Source: a virus
Virus record (IMG/VR): IMGVR_UViG_3300030012_001759
Coordinates: 1-34,441 of that record
DNA: 34,441 bases
Reading direction: 5' to 3' (one strand)
In this document: positions 2,567 through 34,441 of the stretch, one piece after another
Numbering within the stretch: the stretch's first letter is position 1
How the letters are laid out: the number at the start of each line of letters is the position of its first letter
Program-made: the position numbers and the translations under genes
The notes under the pieces: model-generated
Database searches by the model: none
Told to the model about the DNA's origin: nothing
Seen by the model: only the letters and a program-made list of their open reading frames with translations

Positions 2567-3568
2567 ATGTCTAAAATTATAAAATTACAAAACGACAAGT
2601 ATCGCATAACTTATCAAGATCCTGACCTGGGAAAACAGGTAAAGCGTGTAATTACTGGAAAGTCTAGAGCTAAAAGTTATTTTAATCGTGTCAATAGCAT
2701 TATAGATGCAAACAAACTGCAAATTGAAATACCTCGTAAGTTCAACAATAATTATACTTTAGAAGAACTTAAAGATGAGTTTCTTACGTTTATCAAAAAG
2801 AATAGAAGCGAACATACATATAAAAGGTATTGCACTTCTTTAAATAATCTTATAAAATGTTTTTCTAGTAGTATTAAAGTTGAAAGTATAAACATTGAAT
2901 TATATAAGGATAAAAACAACCATCGTAAAGCGAATGGAGTTAATGGTGATCTTAGGGCAATAAAAAGTGCATTCTCTTGGGCTATCAGTCGCAAAAAAAT
3001 ACAATCTGAGCCTGTAATATCTTATTATAAAATTGCTAAGAAGAAAATCAATGTATTATCTGACGATGATATCAAGACTCTAATTAATACAGCCACAGGG
3101 GATACAAAGAATCTTGTACGATTTTATCTATTAACGGGCGCAAGGATATCTGAACCGCTACAAAAAAACTTTACATGGAACGATGTAGATTTTATGAACA
3201 ATCGCATATCTATGACACGCAAAGGCAACAGAAAGTCTTGGGTTAGCGTATCGCAATCTGTCATGGATATATTGTATAATTGGATGGACAGAGAATCACC
3301 GATACCCTACACCGATTCATACGTTAGAAACAGGTTTGAATCTTTAAGAGATGAGACTGGTATACAGTTTACTGCACACGATTTAAGAAAGGCTTCAGGG
3401 GCAATATTGTTACGCCAAGGGGCTTCAATATTTCATGTGTCCAAGTTTTTGGACCACACAAGCGTTGATATAACTGTAAAGTATTATGTTGATCTTCTAA
3501 ATGAAGAAAAGCGTGAATTGTATGAGTCTGTAGCTACGCACTTAAGCTCTATCGTTAGTGAAGTTTAG
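2567..3568 (+). CDS. int: Tyrosine recombinase / phage integrase
   Basis: 333 aa, a normal length for the family. The N-terminal arm-type and core-binding region covers about 1-160; the catalytic domain follows with R193 (L-L-T-G-A-R-I-S-E), K219 or K223 in the beta-hairpin, H271-x-x-R274 (H-D-L-R-K), H297 and the nucleophile Y306 (or the adjacent Y307). The full R-K-H-R-H-Y set is present, so it should be active. The site GGAGAG lies 6 nt before the ATG. It is one of few rightward genes, diverges from the XRE regulator, and its 3' end overlaps by 27 bp the convergent last gene of the late operon. No att core or tRNA fragment was recognised beside it. Confidence 0.92.
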   Translation: MSKIIKLQNDKYRITYQDPDLGKQVKRVITGKSRAKSYFNRVNSIIDANKLQIEIPRKFNNNYTLEELKDEFLTFIKKNRSEHTYKRYCTSLNNLIKCFSSSIKVESINIELYKDKNNHRKANGVNGDLRAIKSAFSWAISRKKIQSEPVISYYKIAKKKINVLSDDDIKTLINTATGDTKNLVRFYLLTGARISEPLQKNFTWNDVDFMNNRISMTRKGNRKSWVSVSQSVMDILYNWMDRESPIPYTDSYVRNRFESLRDETGIQFTAHDLRKASGAILLRQGASIFHVSKFLDHTSVDITVKYYVDLLNEEKRELYESVATHLSSIVSEV

Positions 3569-4510
3569 CTGTATATCGTACAGCCCTGATGCGACCTCGG
3601 TAGCAACAAAAGGATTGTTCGATGAGAACGCATATCGATATTCACTATCGTCTTCAATAAGTATACGTTGGTCTTTGCCTTTATCTATAATATTTCTAAT
3701 AGAATCTTTGACAGTCTCACTGGCTAGACTAAATTGATATTGATAGAATTCTTCATCGTCATTCTCTTTGTTTGCATATTCAAACCCACTGTAGCTTTCA
3801 AGTACGCTTGTCCTGGGCTTTGCACCAGTCTTTAATCCTACCTCAAAGTTTCTTGGTAGCTCATAACGCTCACCCATAAAGATTTCACTAAGCTCTACAT
3901 CAAAGCTACCTGATAATTGCAGTAGAACAATATCTGTAGTAACAGGGCTAGAACCAAAGTCTATGATTGTCCACCCTGATGACGATATTGTACTTTCCTT
4001 TACAAGACCCAAGCTGTCATTTGGATTGTCTGCGGTTAAGAATACATTGCCATTGCTAGTAAGAAATGTTTTACTTGCAGATGTCAAGAATATAACGTTT
4101 TTGTCAGTAGCGAATACTTTTACAGTTGCAGCAGTATTGACAGTAGGAGCATGAAATGCAATGAAATCGAATGTAGATGTATCAGTAAATTCGTAGCGAA
4201 GTCCAATATCAGTACCTGCATCCGCAGTTTTAAAGAGTTTATTGTTTGATGTATAAAAGGTTTCATTTGCTGAAGTCTCAAATGTCTTTAAGCTTGTAAA
4301 GTCTGTTTGCAGTGTATTCCTGTAATCATATAGAACGCTTGGTGTCTTTGTAGTATAATCGGATTGAAATGACGAGGTAGCAATACTACCAAATTTTCGC
4401 ACTTCTAAAGAAAATAACGAGGTATTATCACCGAAGTCTATTGATGCCGAAGAATTGATAAACCCTTCTGTGGGTGCATTCAGACCGATCGTGTCTGTAT
4501 ATAGAATCAT
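3542..4510 (-). CDS. Tail protein, paralogue of the 6858-7610 gene
   Basis: 322 aa, last gene of the late operon; its ATG overlaps the stop of the adhesin gene (TATGA). Ser/Thr-rich, beta-predicted, without cysteines. Its C-terminal ~115 residues align by eye with the 250-aa protein on the other side of the adhesin: both have an aromatic/Pro segment after a G-E/K residue, then a G-x-E-Y-A-N-K signature with acidic or basic residues after it, then a helix (E-T-V/D-K) and a final strand. The middle holds internal near-repeats of F-x-T-S/T-x-x-N-x-x-F-x-T. Probably part of the tail tip or fibre attachment. The reading end overlaps the integrase 3' end. Confidence 0.6.
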   Translation of the reverse strand: MILYTDTIGLNAPTEGFINSSASIDFGDNTSLFSLEVRKFGSIATSSFQSDYTTKTPSVLYDYRNTLQTDFTSLKTFETSANETFYTSNNKLFKTADAGTDIGLRYEFTDTSTFDFIAFHAPTVNTAATVKVFATDKNVIFLTSASKTFLTSNGNVFLTADNPNDSLGLVKESTISSSGWTIIDFGSSPVTTDIVLLQLSGSFDVELSEIFMGERYELPRNFEVGLKTGAKPRTSVLESYSGFEYANKENDDEEFYQYQFSLASETVKDSIRNIIDKGKDQRILIEDDSEYRYAFSSNNPFVATEVASGLYDIQLNFTNDRA

Positions 4511-6858
4511 ATTTGTCGCATAATGAACGTACCGCTAGAACCTGCTGTTCCATTAGTGCCTCCAGAAGAAGTCCCACCTGCGCCACCAGTCACATCTACA
4601 AAACTTGATGAGACATTTGTTGTTGATACGATAACAACAGCACCGCCATTACCACCTCCACCGCCACCACCATCTCCATCTGCACCAGACCCTGTAAATC
4701 CATTGCCACCTGTGCCACCTTTAGCTTCAAACTTTGCACCGCTATTCAATGTTATTGTTTTTGCGCCAATGACAACGAAGCCACCTCCGCCTCCGCCTCC
4801 GCCACCACCATGACCATCAGCAGCTTTACCTCCGCCACCGCCTCCGCCTCCTCCTCCGCAAGAAGGTCTAATAGTTTTTGGTGTATCATCAACTCCATAT
4901 AAATCACGCATAGTAAACAGTACGCTTGGATCGGTATGTGCAAAATTAGTCTTCTTCACAGTTGCACCACCTGCAGTACCACCACTACCTGCGGATGTGC
5001 CACCTGCTAAAGTTTGTCCTGCACCACCTGCTGAACCATTATTAGAATTTATACAAGGATCAGCACTAACCCCAGTTCCACCATTAAAATCACTGCTTCC
5101 ACCAAGACCTCCATTACCTCCACCTCGCAAAGTTCCTTCTGATGCACCTGAGCCTCTAGATCCACCATCTTCAGAACCACCATTACCACCATTTCCACCA
5201 TTGTTTACAATTTTACCGCTAGATTGCATTGTAAGTGTGCCAGATACAAATATGCGATGTCCGCCTGTGTTTATAGTAGCTCCAACATCTAAGTTCGTGT
5301 AATATTTATCTTCTGTTAGGGTTATGTTACCAGATACAGTTGCAGAGCCATCTGAGCCATCACCAAATAACCCTACAAATAAAAGATCTTGTAAATCATT
5401 ACCACCAAGAGTTATGTGTGTTGCATTAATTGTGCTAGTGTCAATTTGTGTAGCTGTTATTGTGCTTGAGGCAATTTTAGATGCTGTGATTGTTCCTGCA
5501 GCAATTTCAGATGCAGTTATAGTTCCAGTAGCAATTTCAGAAGCTGTTATAGTATCGGCAGCAATAACTGCTGCAGTAATAGAGTTCAAAGCAATTTTAT
5601 CAGCACCATCAATAGTGTTTGTAGCAATCTTATCGTTGTTGATAGTTAAATTTGATATATTTGCAGATGTTATTGTCAAATTAGCAATTTTACCTGCAGT
5701 GATTTCAAGATCTCCAATCTTACCTGCTGTTATAGCACCATCTGCTATCTTACCAGTTGTTACTGCTGAAGATGCTATTTTACCACTTGTTACCGCTGAT
5801 GTTCCAATCTTACCTGCAGTGATAGCTGCATTTGCTATTTGAGTTGCAGTGATGGTAGATGAAGTTATGTTTGTAGCTGTAATAGTACCTGAACCAATAT
5901 TTGAACCACTGATAGTTGCAGAAGCAATCTTTGTACCAGTGATAGTTGCATCAGTTATGTTTGTTGCTGTGATTGTACCCGCCCCAATATTAGAACCTGT
6001 AATTGTTGCAGAAGCAATCTTGCCTCCAGTAATTGTAGCATTTGTTATATTGGAAGCAGTTATTGTCCCACTGCCTATGTTAGAACCTGTAATTGTAGCA
6101 GAAGCTATTTTGCTTCCTGTGATGGTAGCGTTAGTGATATTTGAAGCGGTAATTGTTCCTGATGCTATATTAGATCCTGATACTGTGGCTGATGCAATAT
6201 CGGTTCCTGTTATTGTAGCGTTTTGAATATCGCTTGATGTGATTACGACATTTGCGATACTTGAATAATCTATCGTTTTATTTGTCAAAGTTTGCGTTGA
6301 GCTAATATCAACAATATCGCCAGTCGAAGTACCACCTACAGTTTTACCTGTTAGTTGATTTATTTCAGATGTACTAGCGGTTAATCCATCAAGTATATTT
6401 AGTTCTGTGACTGATAGTGTAGCTCCATCGAGTATGTTTAATTCCGTAGCGGTAGACGTTACACCATCTAATATATTAAGCTCTGCAGTAGTAGATGTAA
6501 CTCCGTCTAATATGTTAAGCTCTGCAGTAGTAGATGTAACTCCGTCTAATATGTTAAGCTCGGCTGTCGTGCTTGTGACCCCATCGAGTATATTAAGCTC
6601 GGCATTTGTGCTAGTTACTCCTGTTAGTATATTTAGCTCTGCAGCACTTGAGGTAATAACGACTCCACCCTGGAGTAACGATGTTCCTGACTTTGCTCCT
6701 ACATTTGCTCCGCTGATTTCTAACGCTGTTGTGGTGCCATCTCCATCAAATACTACACGATTTGTGGATGCGTGTACACCATCTGTGTCCCCTACGTGAA
6801 GAAGTTGTGTATAACCTGCACTGATCGAAGTATCGGTAAGTGATGTATTCGCTGCCAT
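4507..6858 (-). CDS. Repeat-rich tail fibre / adhesin with polyglycine C-terminal domain
   Basis: 783 aa in four zones. Residues 1-70: attachment head. Residues 72-170: seven 12-13-residue repeats built on A-E-L-N-I-L-D-G-V-T-S-T. Residues about 204-483: some 28 near-perfect decapeptides of the form x-x-I-T-x-x-x-I-A-x, probably a regular beta fibre. After a folded segment (484-550), residues about 552-783 are Gly-rich, including two runs of ten glycines, with hydrophobic strands between (F-V-V-I-G-A-K-T-I). Interspersed polyglycine is a hallmark of T-even-type gp38 adhesins, in which polyglycine II helices carry receptor-binding loops (known for that family; the link here is inference). Lies between two related tail proteins. 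Confidence 0.8.
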   Translation of the reverse strand: MAANTSLTDTSISAGYTQLLHVGDTDGVHASTNRVVFDGDGTTTALEISGANVGAKSGTSLLQGGVVITSSAAELNILTGVTSTNAELNILDGVTSTTAELNILDGVTSTTAELNILDGVTSTTAELNILDGVTSTATELNILDGATLSVTELNILDGLTASTSEINQLTGKTVGGTSTGDIVDISSTQTLTNKTIDYSSIANVVITSSDIQNATITGTDIASATVSGSNIASGTITASNITNATITGSKIASATITGSNIGSGTITASNITNATITGGKIASATITGSNIGAGTITATNITDATITGTKIASATISGSNIGSGTITATNITSSTITATQIANAAITAGKIGTSAVTSGKIASSAVTTGKIADGAITAGKIGDLEITAGKIANLTITSANISNLTINNDKIATNTIDGADKIALNSITAAVIAADTITASEIATGTITASEIAAGTITASKIASSTITATQIDTSTINATHITLGGNDLQDLLFVGLFGDGSDGSATVSGNITLTEDKYYTNLDVGATINTGGHRIFVSGTLTMQSSGKIVNNGGNGGNGGSEDGGSRGSGASEGTLRGGGNGGLGGSSDFNGGTGVSADPCINSNNGSAGGAGQTLAGGTSAGSGGTAGGATVKKTNFAHTDPSVLFTMRDLYGVDDTPKTIRPSCGGGGGGGGGGKAADGHGGGGGGGGGGFVVIGAKTITLNSGAKFEAKGGTGGNGFTGSGADGDGGGGGGGNGGAVVIVSTTNVSSSFVDVTGGAGGTSSGGTNGTAGSSGTFIMRQI

Positions 6859-21990: not shown

Positions 21991-23062
21991 TTACGGATTT
22001 CTGAATTCGTAAATACGACCTTCAAAAGTTGTAACCGCTCCATATAGAACATCCGAGACCACTTTAGTTCCCAAATCCTCTACTGAGTAGTCTGACTGTA
22101 CTCTTGGCTCAAGCTGTCTAGCAAAGTTCACACTTGATGGGTGAACGATGTATCCAACTTCAACTCCTGTGGTTCCACTAGCACCCATGACAGTACTGGT
22201 GAATACTGGCATTCCGTAAAGTCTACCAATGTTTCCAGTAGCTGCAGGTGCGCCATCGCCATACTTAGAAGCATCTACGAAATCATCGATGCCTAGTAAA
22301 GCAGTGTACAATGCAGGTGAAACAACCAAGTTGCACTCATCAACAGGTACGTCATTCTCCATAAGAGTTTTCATTCCTGCTCTAAGTTCAGCAGCTGTTA
22401 TAACATTGTCATTACCAAGACTAGCTCCATTTGTGGTAGCAGCCTCAATTTTGCTCTCTATGAAAGCATCCATTGTTTTTGCTAGAGAATAACCCATTGT
22501 GCTTACTTCTTTGTCAAGCAAACCTGGGTTAGCCTGTACTGAAGCAATATCTTCAATAAGTTTTGCAACGTAACGATGCTGATCAATCGTAAGCTGTGCT
22601 TCACCATGAGTATCAGCAGAGAAAGTTACTGCACTTCCTGCGGACTTTGCAGCATCTGAACTCTCTGAAAGTTTGGGTATGTGAAATGTGTCACCTCGAC
22701 CTTTCACTAACTCTGAGTAACTTGAATCAACAAGCTGTTCAAAGACGAGCTTACGCTCTAAGTAGTTTTTGACTCCGTCTGACCAAATTTCAGGAATGAA
22801 GTTTGCCAACTTCTGTTATCGTAAAGGCTTTTTATCCTCTACTTCTTTAGGTTTCCCTAAAGTTCGGCATATCTTTTCAGCTATTGCTGTTGCGGACTCG
22901 TGGAAGCGTTATATCTTTTCAGCTTCTATGCTCTGCCCCTGACTAATCTTTGATTAGCCTTCGGTTCGGATTCCCTTATCTTTTGACTTAGGGTTCCCGC
23001 TTAATTCCGCAATTTTATACCGCCACAAAACCTCTAGCGGTAGTCGTTGTAATATTAGCCAT
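21991..23062 (-). CDS. Major capsid protein, split by a group I intron: join(complement 23036..23062, 21991..22806)
   Basis: Exon 1 starts at ATG 23062 with AGGAG 8 nt upstream and encodes M-A-N-I-T-T-T-T-A. Exon 2 resumes at 22806 with A-N-F-I-P-E-I-W. The spliced protein has 280 aa. Exon 2 has the HK97-fold pattern of phage coat proteins: F-I-P-E-I-W-S-D-G then a long N-arm, a helix with Y-S-L-A-K-T-M-D-A-F-I-E, L-V-V-S-P-A-L-Y and a G-R-L-Y-G-M-P-V-F strand. Read without the intron, exon 2 can only start at a TTG (22809) that has no ribosome site and lies one codon after an in-frame TAA (TAA-CAG-AAG-TTG region), whereas exon 1 alone would end at a UAA after 15 codons. It follows the scaffold gene directly. 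Confidence 0.85.
22807..23035 (-). ncRNA. ORF-less group I intron (229 nt, IA-like) in the major capsid gene
   Basis: Numbering from intron base 1 (23035). P1: exon ACCGCU pairs with 12-17 GGCGGU, with the required U-G wobble at the 5' splice site. P3: 24-30 UUGCGGA with 140-146 UCCGCAA. P4: 37-40 CGGG with 66-69 UCCG, flanked by AA on both sides. P5: 43-46 with 60-63. P6a: 77-84 with 88-95. P7: 105-109 GCAUA with 165-169 UAUGC. P7.1: 110-114 GAAGC with 129-133 GCUUC, an insertion usual in subgroup IA. P8: 147-150 with 155-158. P9: 174-180 with 185-191 closed by GAAA. P9.1: 194-200 with 209-215. P10: 7-11 UUUGU with exon 2 GCAAA. The last base is G. All in the order known for the family, so self-splicing is very likely. 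Confidence 0.9.
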
Positions 23063-23066
23063 TTAA

Positions 23067-23594
23067 TTAGCTCCTATATCTATCAAGAATCGAACTCCAC
23101 TTCTTTTTACGTTCTTCAGGTGTCATTTCCGTAAATGGACTTTTACCTGTAGAAGGCATTTGACCTGGAGCAGATTCGTTTGTTACGACATTCTTTTTAA
23201 CACTTGACCGATTAACGAACTTGCGAAGTTTGTCCGTAGACAAGTCATCTGCAAATTCACGATCCTCTTCAGTAAGCTGACCCAAAAGATCTTGACGAAT
23301 GGACTCTTGTAATTTTTGTCCTTCTTCCGCCATGGCTGATAATTGTTTGTTTTCGTCCTCGTATTTCTCTGCAAGTTCCTTCCACTGCTCTTGCTCTTTG
23401 AGCTTCGTCTCTTCAATGGACTTGAGTTTATTTTCGAGTTCTTTCGCTTTTATTTCAGCTTCCTGCGCACGAGAGCGATATTTCTTCGACTCTTGAATTA
23501 GCTTACCGACTTCGTGCTGTTCATCAGTATGCTCTCGTGGTTGTTCTACCACTACTTCTTCTTGTTCGTTCTGAACAGTTTCTTGATCACTCAT
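23067..23594 (-). CDS. Capsid scaffolding protein
   Basis: 175 aa, very charged and Gln/Glu/Lys-rich with a long predicted coiled coil (about residues 25-110), followed by a helix-turn region (L-T-E-E-D-R-E-F-A-D-D-L) and a basic C-terminus (E-E-R-K-K-K-W-S-S-I-L-D-R-Y-R). This pattern and the position directly before the capsid gene identify a scaffold protein; the basic end would bind the inside of the capsid shell. Confidence 0.8.
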   Translation of the reverse strand: MSDQETVQNEQEEVVVEQPREHTDEQHEVGKLIQESKKYRSRAQEAEIKAKELENKLKSIEETKLKEQEQWKELAEKYEDENKQLSAMAEEGQKLQESIRQDLLGQLTEEDREFADDLSTDKLRKFVNRSSVKKNVVTNESAPGQMPSTGKSPFTEMTPEERKKKWSSILDRYRS

Positions 23595-29769: not shown

Positions 29770-30008
29770 GTAAAATATTTAATCACAATGGTGTTAAAAT
29801 CGATATAAGAGGTGAAAATTCTTTATATGTAGATATCAAGGGTCAAACTATTTATATAGATACAAGTATATCTAATGAGCTAATTGTTACTTCTTGGAAC
29901 AATTGTAAAGAAAGTAAATCAGACTTTACAGCAGATTGGGATATTATTCAAAAGCTAGATGAAGATAAACTCGTACTTTATACAGAGCTAGAAAGTGAGG
30001 TGAAGTGA
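29766..30008 (+). CDS. Unknown small protein (80 aa)
   Basis: Unrecognised. 80 aa, beta-rich start (N-H-N-G-V-K-I-D-I-R-G-E-N, then Y-V-D-I-K-G-Q-T-I-Y-I-D) and acidic C-terminus. No cysteine cluster except one Cys. GAGGTG upstream overlaps the end of the previous gene. It precedes the methyltransferase, whose start overlaps its stop. Confidence 0.55.
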   Translation: MSKIFNHNGVKIDIRGENSLYVDIKGQTIYIDTSISNELIVTSWNNCKESKSDFTADWDIIQKLDEDKLVLYTELESEVK

Positions 30009-31141
30009 TGGCTAATAATACACCCCTCAGGGTATTTTCTATGTTCACAGGAATTGGTGGGTTCGAAGTCGGACTCATTAATTCTAATCTTGCGTATAAA
30101 ATGGTAGGTTTTAGCGAGGTAGATAAATACGCGATCCAAATCTATAACAAACATTTTAAAGGAATAAAAAATTATGGAGATGCAACAGCAATCAATGAAA
30201 CTGAATTACCAAACTTCGACTTACTCGTTGGAGGATTTCCTTGTCAAGCTTTCAGCATGGCAGGAAAAAGAAAAGGATTCAACGACACAAGAGGTACGCT
30301 CTTTTTTGATATCGCAAGGATTCTCTCCGAGAAAAAACCCAAATATTTTATACTCGAAAACGTTAAAGGTCTACTTTCTCATGACAAGGGAAGAACTTTA
30401 CAGACAATCTTTGGGGTTCTCTCCGACTTGGGGTATGAGTATCAATGGGAAATACTTAATAGTAAGAACTTCGGAGTCCCACAGAATAGGGAACGAGTGT
30501 ATATTGTCGGACATCTTAGAGGAACAAGTAGACCCAAAATATTTCCTATCGGAGAAAGCAAAGAAATATCTGATACGAGCAGAGAATCGAAAAGGTCAGA
30601 AAGTAGCCAAGTATCATCAACGATAACGAGTAATTATAAGCGTGGTGTTCATGCGATGGGTGAACAATATATTATAGAGAATAAATTAAAACAAATAGGC
30701 AATATAGACACTAAGGGTCATAATTCTATTTGGGGAAGGGTATATGATACGCAAGGGATAGCTGCAACAATAAATGCGCATGGTAGAGGGCTTGGTGCTA
30801 AGACAGGATTGTACCAAGTCCAAGTGCGAGAGGCAACGAAAAAGGGTTACGCAGTTGCTGAAGAAGGTGATTCTATTAATCTATCTGTTCCTAACTCTAA
30901 TACTAGGCGTGGAAGGGTAGGTAAGAAAATCGCTCAAACTATCGACACAGGTATGCAACAACACACACTTCAGGACTCTCAGATCCGTAGGCTTACCCCA
31001 AGGGAATGCGAACGACTCCAAGGATTTCCTGACGATTGGACGGAAGGAATCTCAGATACTCAACGCTATAAATGTTTAGGAAATGCAGTTACGACCAATG
31101 TAGTTACTGCGATAATCAATAGGCTTTATTCTAATAATTAA
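30008..31141 (+). CDS. DNA cytosine-C5 methyltransferase
   Basis: 377 aa from ATG 30008 (GAGG 7 nt upstream); an in-frame GTG at 30005 is an alternative. Motif I F-S-M-F-T-G-I-G-G-F-E, motif IV G-G-F-P-C79-Q with the catalytic Cys, motif VI E-N-V, motif VIII Q-N-R-E-R-V-Y-I-V-G, motif IX R-E-C-E-R-L-Q-G-F-P, motif X G-N-A-V. The set is complete; the region 190-300 is the target recognition domain. No cognate restriction enzyme is seen, so it is an orphan enzyme that may protect phage DNA or alter expression. Its end overlaps by 4 bp the convergent gene at 31138. Confidence 0.92.
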   Translation: MANNTPLRVFSMFTGIGGFEVGLINSNLAYKMVGFSEVDKYAIQIYNKHFKGIKNYGDATAINETELPNFDLLVGGFPCQAFSMAGKRKGFNDTRGTLFFDIARILSEKKPKYFILENVKGLLSHDKGRTLQTIFGVLSDLGYEYQWEILNSKNFGVPQNRERVYIVGHLRGTSRPKIFPIGESKEISDTSRESKRSESSQVSSTITSNYKRGVHAMGEQYIIENKLKQIGNIDTKGHNSIWGRVYDTQGIAATINAHGRGLGAKTGLYQVQVREATKKGYAVAEEGDSINLSVPNSNTRRGRVGKKIAQTIDTGMQQHTLQDSQIRRLTPRECERLQGFPDDWTEGISDTQRYKCLGNAVTTNVVTAIINRLYSNN

Positions 31142-33424: not shown

Positions 33425-34072
33425 TTAAGGTTTTAGCTTATCAAGCTCCAAACAGCACTTAAATACCTTCCATCCCCAGTCTAGCTGTTTGCGACTAATG
33501 TTATGATGCGTGAACGCACCTGTATTCTTATCGAGCCTTAATACATACCCATATTCAATCTTAGCCTTTGGTTGCATCCTTTCGTACATATGGCAGTATG
33601 CACCAAGCTGTATAATATGGTCATCGTACAGGAATTTGCTCGTTTTTATGTCTCCAATAACTACCTCACCACCGATTTTTGCAACTTGGTCGGCTGTACC
33701 GCCTACTTCTAGCTCTTCATCGACCAAAACTAGCTCTGTGCCGATAAATTTTGGCTTGTATGCCTTTCTCCACTGCTTAAAAGCCTCAAATCCATTGTTT
33801 GCCTTCTCAATTTGCTCGGCAGAATAGCTTGAGGTCTTTGGAACTTCGTTCTTTATGTCGCATTCCACGAGATAATGGGTCAAAGTTCCAATATTTGCAG
33901 CCTCTTTCAGCACCAATTCAGGGTCGTAACCTGATAATGCTTGTCTTCTAGCCCATCCTATCAATACTTGCTTGTTCCAACCAAGATTATTACCCAAAAT
34001 CGTGGTAACTGACCGACATTTCTTGCCTTTTTTTGTTACATAACTGCCACCATGCGCTTTAGTCCTCGCCAT
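33425..34072 (-). CDS. RecB-like PD-(D/E)XK exonuclease
   Basis: 215 aa. G-T-L-T-H66 (motif with His), G-G-T-A-D128-Q, the catalytic strand V-I-G-D141-I-K143-T-S, and Q155-L-G-A-Y, matching the H...D...D-x-K...Q-x-x-x-Y set of Cas4/RecB-type nucleases. Probably trims DNA ends in recombination together with the SSB and the resolvase. Overlaps the GIY-YIG gene by 14 bp. Confidence 0.8.
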   Translation of the reverse strand: MARTKAHGGSYVTKKGKKCRSVTTILGNNLGWNKQVLIGWARRQALSGYDPELVLKEAANIGTLTHYLVECDIKNEVPKTSSYSAEQIEKANNGFEAFKQWRKAYKPKFIGTELVLVDEELEVGGTADQVAKIGGEVVIGDIKTSKFLYDDHIIQLGAYCHMYERMQPKAKIEYGYVLRLDKNTGAFTHHNISRKQLDWGWKVFKCCLELDKLKP

Positions 34073-34441
34073 TTTCGTACTCCTTTACAAATTCTAGTTC
34101 TTGTTTTAAGTTTTCACGCATTACCAAGTAACACGCATCCGACATACTGCATTGATGCATCGTAGCATAGACTCGTAATGCTCTAACAAGATCTTCTCTA
34201 AGGCTCAGTCTCATCTTAACAGTCTCTTGATTGGTAATCTTGTTATATAACTGTTTATTTAGCTTTGGCTTTAGCCTTTGAATCAGGCGAATTTCGAGCT
34301 TTGTTCGCTCATCTATGGTATCAGTTGCCCTTACCTTTAAATAAGCTAATTTACCCCTTTTAGGGTGCTTGTATATACGTCCTCTTACATTCTTTGACTG
34401 ACCTATATATATAAGCTCGTCATTGGCATCGTACATTGCAT
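34059..34441 (-). CDS. GIY-YIG nuclease with C-terminal ribbon-helix-helix segment (right-hand part)
   Basis: Joined with 1-154 this gives 145 aa. GIY (17-19), YIG (30-32), R38/R40, H44, catalytic E68 in L-E-I-R-L-I-Q-R-L, and K-P-K-L-N80, a complete nuclease core. From about 95 the protein has M-R-L-S-L-R-E-D-L-V-R-A-L-R-V, which looks like a ribbon-helix-helix DNA-binding segment. Small stand-alone GIY-YIG proteins of phages are homing or host-DNA-degrading nucleases or repair factors. Position in the early operon and ATGA coupling suggest an early function. Bases 34343-34441 repeat 1-99. Confidence 0.85.
   Translation of the reverse strand, partial: AMYDANDELIYIGQSKNVRGRIYKHPKRGKLAYLKVRATDTIDERTKLEIRLIQRLKPKLNKQLYNKITNQETVKMRLSLREDLVRALRVYATMHQCSMSDACYLVMRENLKQELEFVKEYENGED
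34343..34441. repeat. Terminal direct repeat, right copy
   Basis: Identical to bases 1-99; see the left copy. The length of 99 equals a common assembler word size, which supports an artefact of circle closure rather than a biological repeat. Confidence 0.9.

Follow-up and report, generated by a model that had tools for sequence, protein, structure and literature searches.

What is the 229-nucleotide (nt) insert that separates the first nine codons of a major capsid gene from those that follow in the viral record IMGVR_UViG_3300030012_001759, and how might it have come to be there? The record was analysed over its positions 1 to 34,441, a stretch which we describe here as the window, and the insert lies on the minus strand, where it parts codon 9 of the gene from codon 10. 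An earlier note on this DNA had proposed a group I intron at precisely this place, and so it has turned out: the insert almost certainly is a self-splicing group I intron of the capsid gene, one belonging to a widespread lineage of gene-less phage introns. What follows is based upon the anatomy of the element, the covariation of its helices, the existence of exactly matching empty sites among relatives, and its recurrence at other sites.

The gene begins conventionally, with a Shine-Dalgarno sequence (AGGAG, 23071-23075) found 8 nt 5' of the capsid ATG (23062). That start opens a first exon (23036-23062) consisting of the ATG plus eight codons, i.e., MANITTTTA. The insert then occupies 22807-23035, and the remainder of the protein, 271 codons plus stop, is found in a second exon (21991-22806) which begins GCAAACTTCATTCCTGAAATTTGG and continues in that frame to 21991. 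The product of exon 2 matches the phrog_267 major head protein (E 1e-43), along with Pfam families Phage_capsid_4 and Phage_capsid_2. Joined, the exons supply a coding sequence (CDS) of 843 nt, with a predicted junction in the spliced RNA of ACTACCGCT|GCAAACTTC (here and below the bar marks the splice junction) and a predicted capsid protein of 280 residues. Left in place, the insert instead closes the exon 1 frame after 15 codons, at an in-frame TAA (23015-23017) located between P1 and the catalytic core. There is no open reading frame (ORF) within the 229 nt, i.e., the intron is ORF-less as had been claimed, and thus it lacks the homing endonuclease gene of its own that is looked for in mobile introns.

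That splicing restores the capsid frame is best appreciated from relatives that lack the insert. Among related viral contigs, intronless L003-L009 and L019 display MANITTTTA|ANFIPEIWSDG without interruption, which is the exact predicted spliced product, with empty alleles matching in both length and frame at the junction, and with protein identities to exon 2 of 89-97%. Other relatives do possess introns. L002, which is nearly identical to the window, and also L017 carry theirs at the same site as the window; five others (L011, L030, L053, L075, L034) carry an intron one codon further on; and in L013 the intron is eight codons further on. The intron therefore is clearly polymorphic, as to presence versus absence, among relatives of this capsid gene. 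With this comparison, as had been called for, the boundaries, the length of the intron and of the spliced CDS, and the dependence of a normal start upon splicing all fall where the earlier note had placed them.

For consideration of structure, homologous introns were gathered from IMG/VR by their core pattern, giving 69 stretches, 52 of them distinct, and 40 of these were aligned. A group I fold, with its crossing of P3 and P7, was written onto the window sequence and pairs were counted over those 40 introns. Paired cells amounted to 93.1% (75.1% in shuffles), double-change cells to 386 (115 in shuffles), and the covariation score was 0.469, as compared with 0.159 upon shuffling and no more than 0.108 with pairing partners slid. 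Two-sided, that is, compensatory changes are present in P3, P5, P6a, P7, P7.1, P8, P9, and P9.1, while P4 and P6, being invariant among the aligned introns, are uninformative. P9 (helix 10) scores more poorly because two types of P9 were misaligned by one base. The fold of the element itself lies 5 standard deviations below those of shuffled sequences (z -5).

The helices may be followed in order along the minus strand. The 5' strand of P3 (23006-23011) pairs with its 3' strand (22891-22896), with two-sided changes in three of six pairs. P4 (22997-22999 with 22967-22969) encloses P5, together spanning 22967-22999, with P4 invariant and P5 covarying. P6 and the P6a hairpin (22952-22959 with 22941-22948) occupy 22938-22964, five of the eight P6a pairs having changed on both sides. 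The 5' strand of P7, with its bulged A (22927-22933), pairs with 22866-22871, all cells being paired in all 40 introns and two pairs showing two-sided changes; the pair past the bulge has gone from G-C to A-U in 12 of the 40. Between the P7 5' strand and the P3 3' strand is the P7.1 hairpin (22903-22926), which covaries, two-sidedly, at every pair, and which places the intron in subgroup IA. The P8 hairpin (22878-22889) and the P9 hairpin (22845-22862), both as placed by the covariation alignment, flank the P7 3' strand, and the P9.1 hairpin (22821-22842) shows two-sided changes in seven of seven pairs. The order P3 to P8, with crossing P3 and P7, is that of a group I core, and the earlier drawing of all core helices plus P10 in correct order has held. 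Of the P7.1/P7.2 which group IA introns carry according to the earlier note, P7.1 is present here as a single hairpin; neither P7.2 nor a separate P2 was seen in the fold of the window intron.

The splice sites, too, are those of a group I intron, with a U-G in P1, a terminal G, and a P10 formed with exon 2, P1 and P10 being contiguous, all as had been described. The exon strand of P1, TACCGCT (23036-23042), pairs with an internal guide, GGCGGTA (23018-23024, intron bases 12-18), giving seven pairs, the last of which is the U-G at the 5' splice site. Adjoining P1, five contiguous P10 pairs are formed between intron bases 11-7 (23025-23029) and the GCAAA with which exon 2 begins (22802-22806). 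The intron ends at G22807, the sole G-ended site which yields both the frame of the relatives and a P10. Capsid pre-messenger RNA thus would be transcribed with its 229-nt insert, and the insert would remove itself by the two-step group I reaction: guanosine would attack at the U-G 5' site, as defined by the pairing of exon 1 with the internal guide (P1), and the 3' end of exon 1 would then attack following G22807, with exon 2 held by P10. The outcome would be the joining of codon 9 to codon 10 and a normal, 280-residue capsid protein translated from the AGGAG-ATG start.

Might the intron instead be dead, or at best poorly splicing, with some internal codon, such as the TTG at 22809, serving as the start for translation of the capsid protein from unspliced RNA? 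The two possibilities predict different N-terminal peptides, ANITTTTAANFIPEIW if spliced versus MANFIPEIW if begun at the TTG. The latter is very improbable. That TTG lacks a well-placed ribosome-binding site, as the GAAG near it abuts the codon, while exon 1 possesses its AGGAG 8 nt before an ATG. An NTG at the end of the intron is, furthermore, a feature of the lineage, with CTG, ATG, and TTG all occurring, and it is found as well in introns that interrupt a codon or that lie toward the 3' end of the gene, where it would be useless as a start. The catalytic P7 and P3 also are intact and under compensatory selection. Scarcely credible, in turn, is the idea that the insert is no intron at all but a regulatory leader or attenuator within capsid mRNA. 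A strong fold (z -5) near to a start codon speaks for such an RNA, but the element displays the exact group I order, including P3/P7 crossing, U-G, and terminal G; in other capsid genes the same element is found well within the coding sequence and toward its 3' end; and without removal the capsid frame is closed by the stop after 15 codons.

Several considerations nevertheless weigh against interpretation of the insert as a spliced and mobile intron. The splicing itself, as it would occur in vivo, is predicted from sequence. Own-guide pairing does support it, at 98% for P1, versus 68% with guides swapped among the 15 introns with clear sites, and 84% versus 51% for P10, with 0 of 5000 permutations reaching the observed P1/P10 values, a statistic which is inflated in that sites were partly chosen for high pairing. 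The splice sites of capsid genes, however, were set independently, by protein homology. The lineage presumably has entered capsid genes many times and may move among related phages along with short flanks, and versus the nearest intronless relative, L003, the window indeed differs at 7 of 37 positions beside the insertion as compared with 60 of 1676 elsewhere (p 4e-4), but in a flank zone that was selected following inspection of the data. This clustering is partly forced by the needs of P1/P10 pairing, and the same test was non-significant for most other relatives (ungapped identity windows around the site, being spoiled by insertions and deletions, were not used for it). Lastly, the intron is absent from the list returned by a scan of the whole window with Rfam at its gathering score of 50.

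That last absence is a matter of score. In a search of a 321-base stretch, the element aligns to the whole of Rfam model RF00028 with a score of 24.6 bits (E 2e-4), which lies under the gathering score, and the covariance check which had been proposed thus succeeded in terms of full-length matching though not in terms of threshold. The gathering score serves for curation of the database and does not define a group I intron by its structure. At that threshold no intron was detected within the loci of 15 relatives either. The intron at 1786-2027 of L031 falls slightly short of it at 49.3 bits. A family covariance model, R1, therefore was constructed, trained upon the 40 introns, the window's included. 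As a member of the training set, the window gives a single R1 match of 227 bits (23016-22814), with no further family intron found upon scanning its whole length. The full contigs of intronless L008, L014, and L019 supplied no R1 match.

How far does this lineage extend? Following the joining of exons by hand, capsid genes of the phrog_267 type were found to hold 23 introns, distributed over eight positions: TTTTA|ANF, TTTTAA|NF, FIPE-I/L|W, DL|LSQYAKAM, GTK-V|VADVIYG, TKVVA|DMIYG, HLA|TSVVADV, and IR-V|QSEYSVD. All 23 are ORF-less, 211-250 nt in length, and upon joining leave an open capsid frame. Automatic picking of splice sites failed given an extra P2-like hairpin, so that junctions there were set by hand and checked against the joined protein, as with L065, for which the 5' splice site is GATTTGCT, in phase 2. 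P1 and P10 sequences vary along with the insertion site, and within a five-site group synonymous exon changes are mirrored in the guide (TGCCGCT/GGCGGCA, CGCTGCT/GGCAGCG, AGCTGCT/GGCAGCT). A stop in the exon 1 frame precedes the core in 23 of the 23 capsid introns, as compared with 16 and 15 of 23 for the other two frames (Fisher 9e-4, with sequences that are related and hence non-independent). Such a stop likely keeps ribosomes off of the ribozyme core.

The lineage is found as well in other capsid families, these being phrog_422 (L037, L074), phrog_1328 (L039), and phrog_9953 (L081). The phrog_1328 gene is a single major capsid gene with three lineage introns inside a span of approximately 1 kb (L039, 1119-2131), and these fall into three separate branches of a FastTree phylogeny of the core, a tree in which the window's site-1 introns stand beside site-2 introns with moderate support. 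L031 likewise carries two lineage introns in one contig, at 1786-2027 and at 2491-2687, the latter within a capsid gene. Overall, capsid genes are hosts to 29 of the 52 distinct introns of the one pattern search, representatives having been tested and the remainder assigned by evident similarity. Non-capsid hosts include major tail, topoisomerase II, dUTPase, and terminase-type genes, the last as assigned by sequence reading and weak matches. In one scan of bacterial and archaeal genome contigs, the lineage was rare (4 stretches).

By what means an ORF-less intron might reach new sites is a more speculative issue. Between the window and L017, all 26 of 26 flanking bases (-15 to +11) are identical and the introns are approximately 96-97% identical, while the flanks further out differ by 15%, a pattern which fits transfer along with short flanks, with pairing constraints contributing and the flank zone having been selected following inspection. 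One conceivable route to new sites, if an unlikely one, is guide-directed reverse splicing into capsid mRNA followed by reverse transcription and recombination, with ordinary phage recombination spreading the intron thereafter. Reverse splicing employing 4-6 matching bases is in fact the route which has been proposed for ectopic insertion (PMC3984707). In its favor are sister introns only one codon apart with guides matched to a CCGCT-like motif (TACCGCT|GCA in the window, TGCCGCT|AAT in L011), the occupation of eight sites within a single capsid family by introns which are ORF-less, and the presence of all seven P1 bases, TACCGCT (around 3001), in L005, which is intronless. That target in L005, though, may be either ancestral or what is left following intron loss, and loss, or instead nucleases which themselves have since been lost, could give rise to the same pattern. 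Also unlikely is an extension of this idea, that of a nuclease-free lineage which has specialised on capsid genes and which reaches new sites nearby through guide-directed reverse splicing into abundant late mRNA, with high expression being what makes those genes targets.

Homing nucleases are not foreign to the lineage. Homing-nuclease-like frames of differing types are found 5' of the intron core in L042, L028, L036, and L032. In non-capsid introns such frames end just 5' of the guide, and are GIY-YIG in L042 and HNH in L036, with that of L032 having no Pfam match above cut-off; they may be read as sitting in the P1 loop. The lineage thus seems to have had nucleases, with the window's branch having none. 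The window does encode a GIY-YIG gene, which spans the join of the circular record, being encoded on the minus strand by 34059-34441 plus 1-109. The earlier note had put this gene forward as the candidate nuclease acting in trans, an idea which gains something from that encoding and from the GIY-YIG gene just 5' of the core in some lineage introns of other genes (L042). It is improbable and, as proposed, unsupported. The gene does not adjoin the capsid gene, and homologues that are 60% identical are retained in the contigs of L008 and L019, both of which have intronless capsid genes, so that the idea of a partnership with the window intron is weakened. Its role or target would appear to be another one, or at least one that is unlinked to the capsid intron.

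As to the genome otherwise, an exact 99-bp direct repeat (1-99 and 34343-34441) indicates that the record, though treated as linear, probably is a complete circular, or circularly permuted, genome of 34,342 bp. A tyrosine integrase (2567-3568) together with a C5-type DNA methyltransferase (30005-31141) suggest a phage that is probably temperate. A 783-amino acid protein (4507-6858, minus strand) resembles a tail fibre, in that it contains repeats of TAELNILDGVTST as well as long ones of the ITATNI/ITGSNI kind and is rich in glycine at one end.

Considered singly, the window's intron is of a known type; what is novel is a recurrent, ORF-less capsid lineage that Rfam, as used at its gathering threshold, does not see. 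Capsid genes which bear such introns come to be annotated from false starts or lose their ends. No published account of this lineage in the capsid genes of these phages was found in a literature search to which subscription journals were mostly inaccessible. Why phage group I introns favor genes of nucleotide and DNA metabolism was described in 2025 as still mysterious (PMC12350094), and a lineage residing mostly in capsid genes stands in contrast to that preference. A pair of sister sites separated by a single codon, a gene with three introns, and empty alleles together represent a natural series for study of nuclease-free intron movement.

Dependence of a highly expressed structural gene upon splicing had been described as unusual. 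This is overstated, given mycobacteriophage LittleE, crAss-like phages, and the many capsid introns of the lineage itself. With LittleE, a spliced major capsid gene has been demonstrated by reverse transcription PCR (RT-PCR) along with N-terminal sequencing (PMC3706429). As in the window, there is a probable group I intron in a capsid gene, with a U before it, a G at its end, and intronless relatives; unlike in the window, that intron is 819 bp in length and possesses a homing-nuclease frame, its authors left its type open, and the comparison made here is one of organization. The tail-gene intron of mycobacteriophage BAKA (PMC3706429) resembles that of the window in being short (265 bp), nuclease-free, and found in a virion gene, and its splicing was seen by RT-PCR, but the gene is that of a minor tail protein and again the comparison is one of organization. 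In crAss-like phages of the Delta and Zeta groups, capsid genes are split by group I introns, with several per gene in Zeta (PMC7886860), and this is seen as well with bajarodcaudo virus 1 (PQ006092), in the capsid region of which R1 has four matches. These, though, are much larger gut phages, with introns which lie beside endonuclease genes or were identified by means of them. The same R1 family is represented in the annotated two-piece terL CDS of Lactobacillus phage JCL1032 (EU409559; 104.5 bits), which differs in being a terminase gene, and likewise around terL in Staphylococcus phage VB-SauS-SA2 (111 bits). The introns of Staphylococcus phage Twort and those of T4 td, nrdB, and nrdD are phage group I introns too, with R1 giving a weak, partial match of 17.8 bits in Twort and none in T4.
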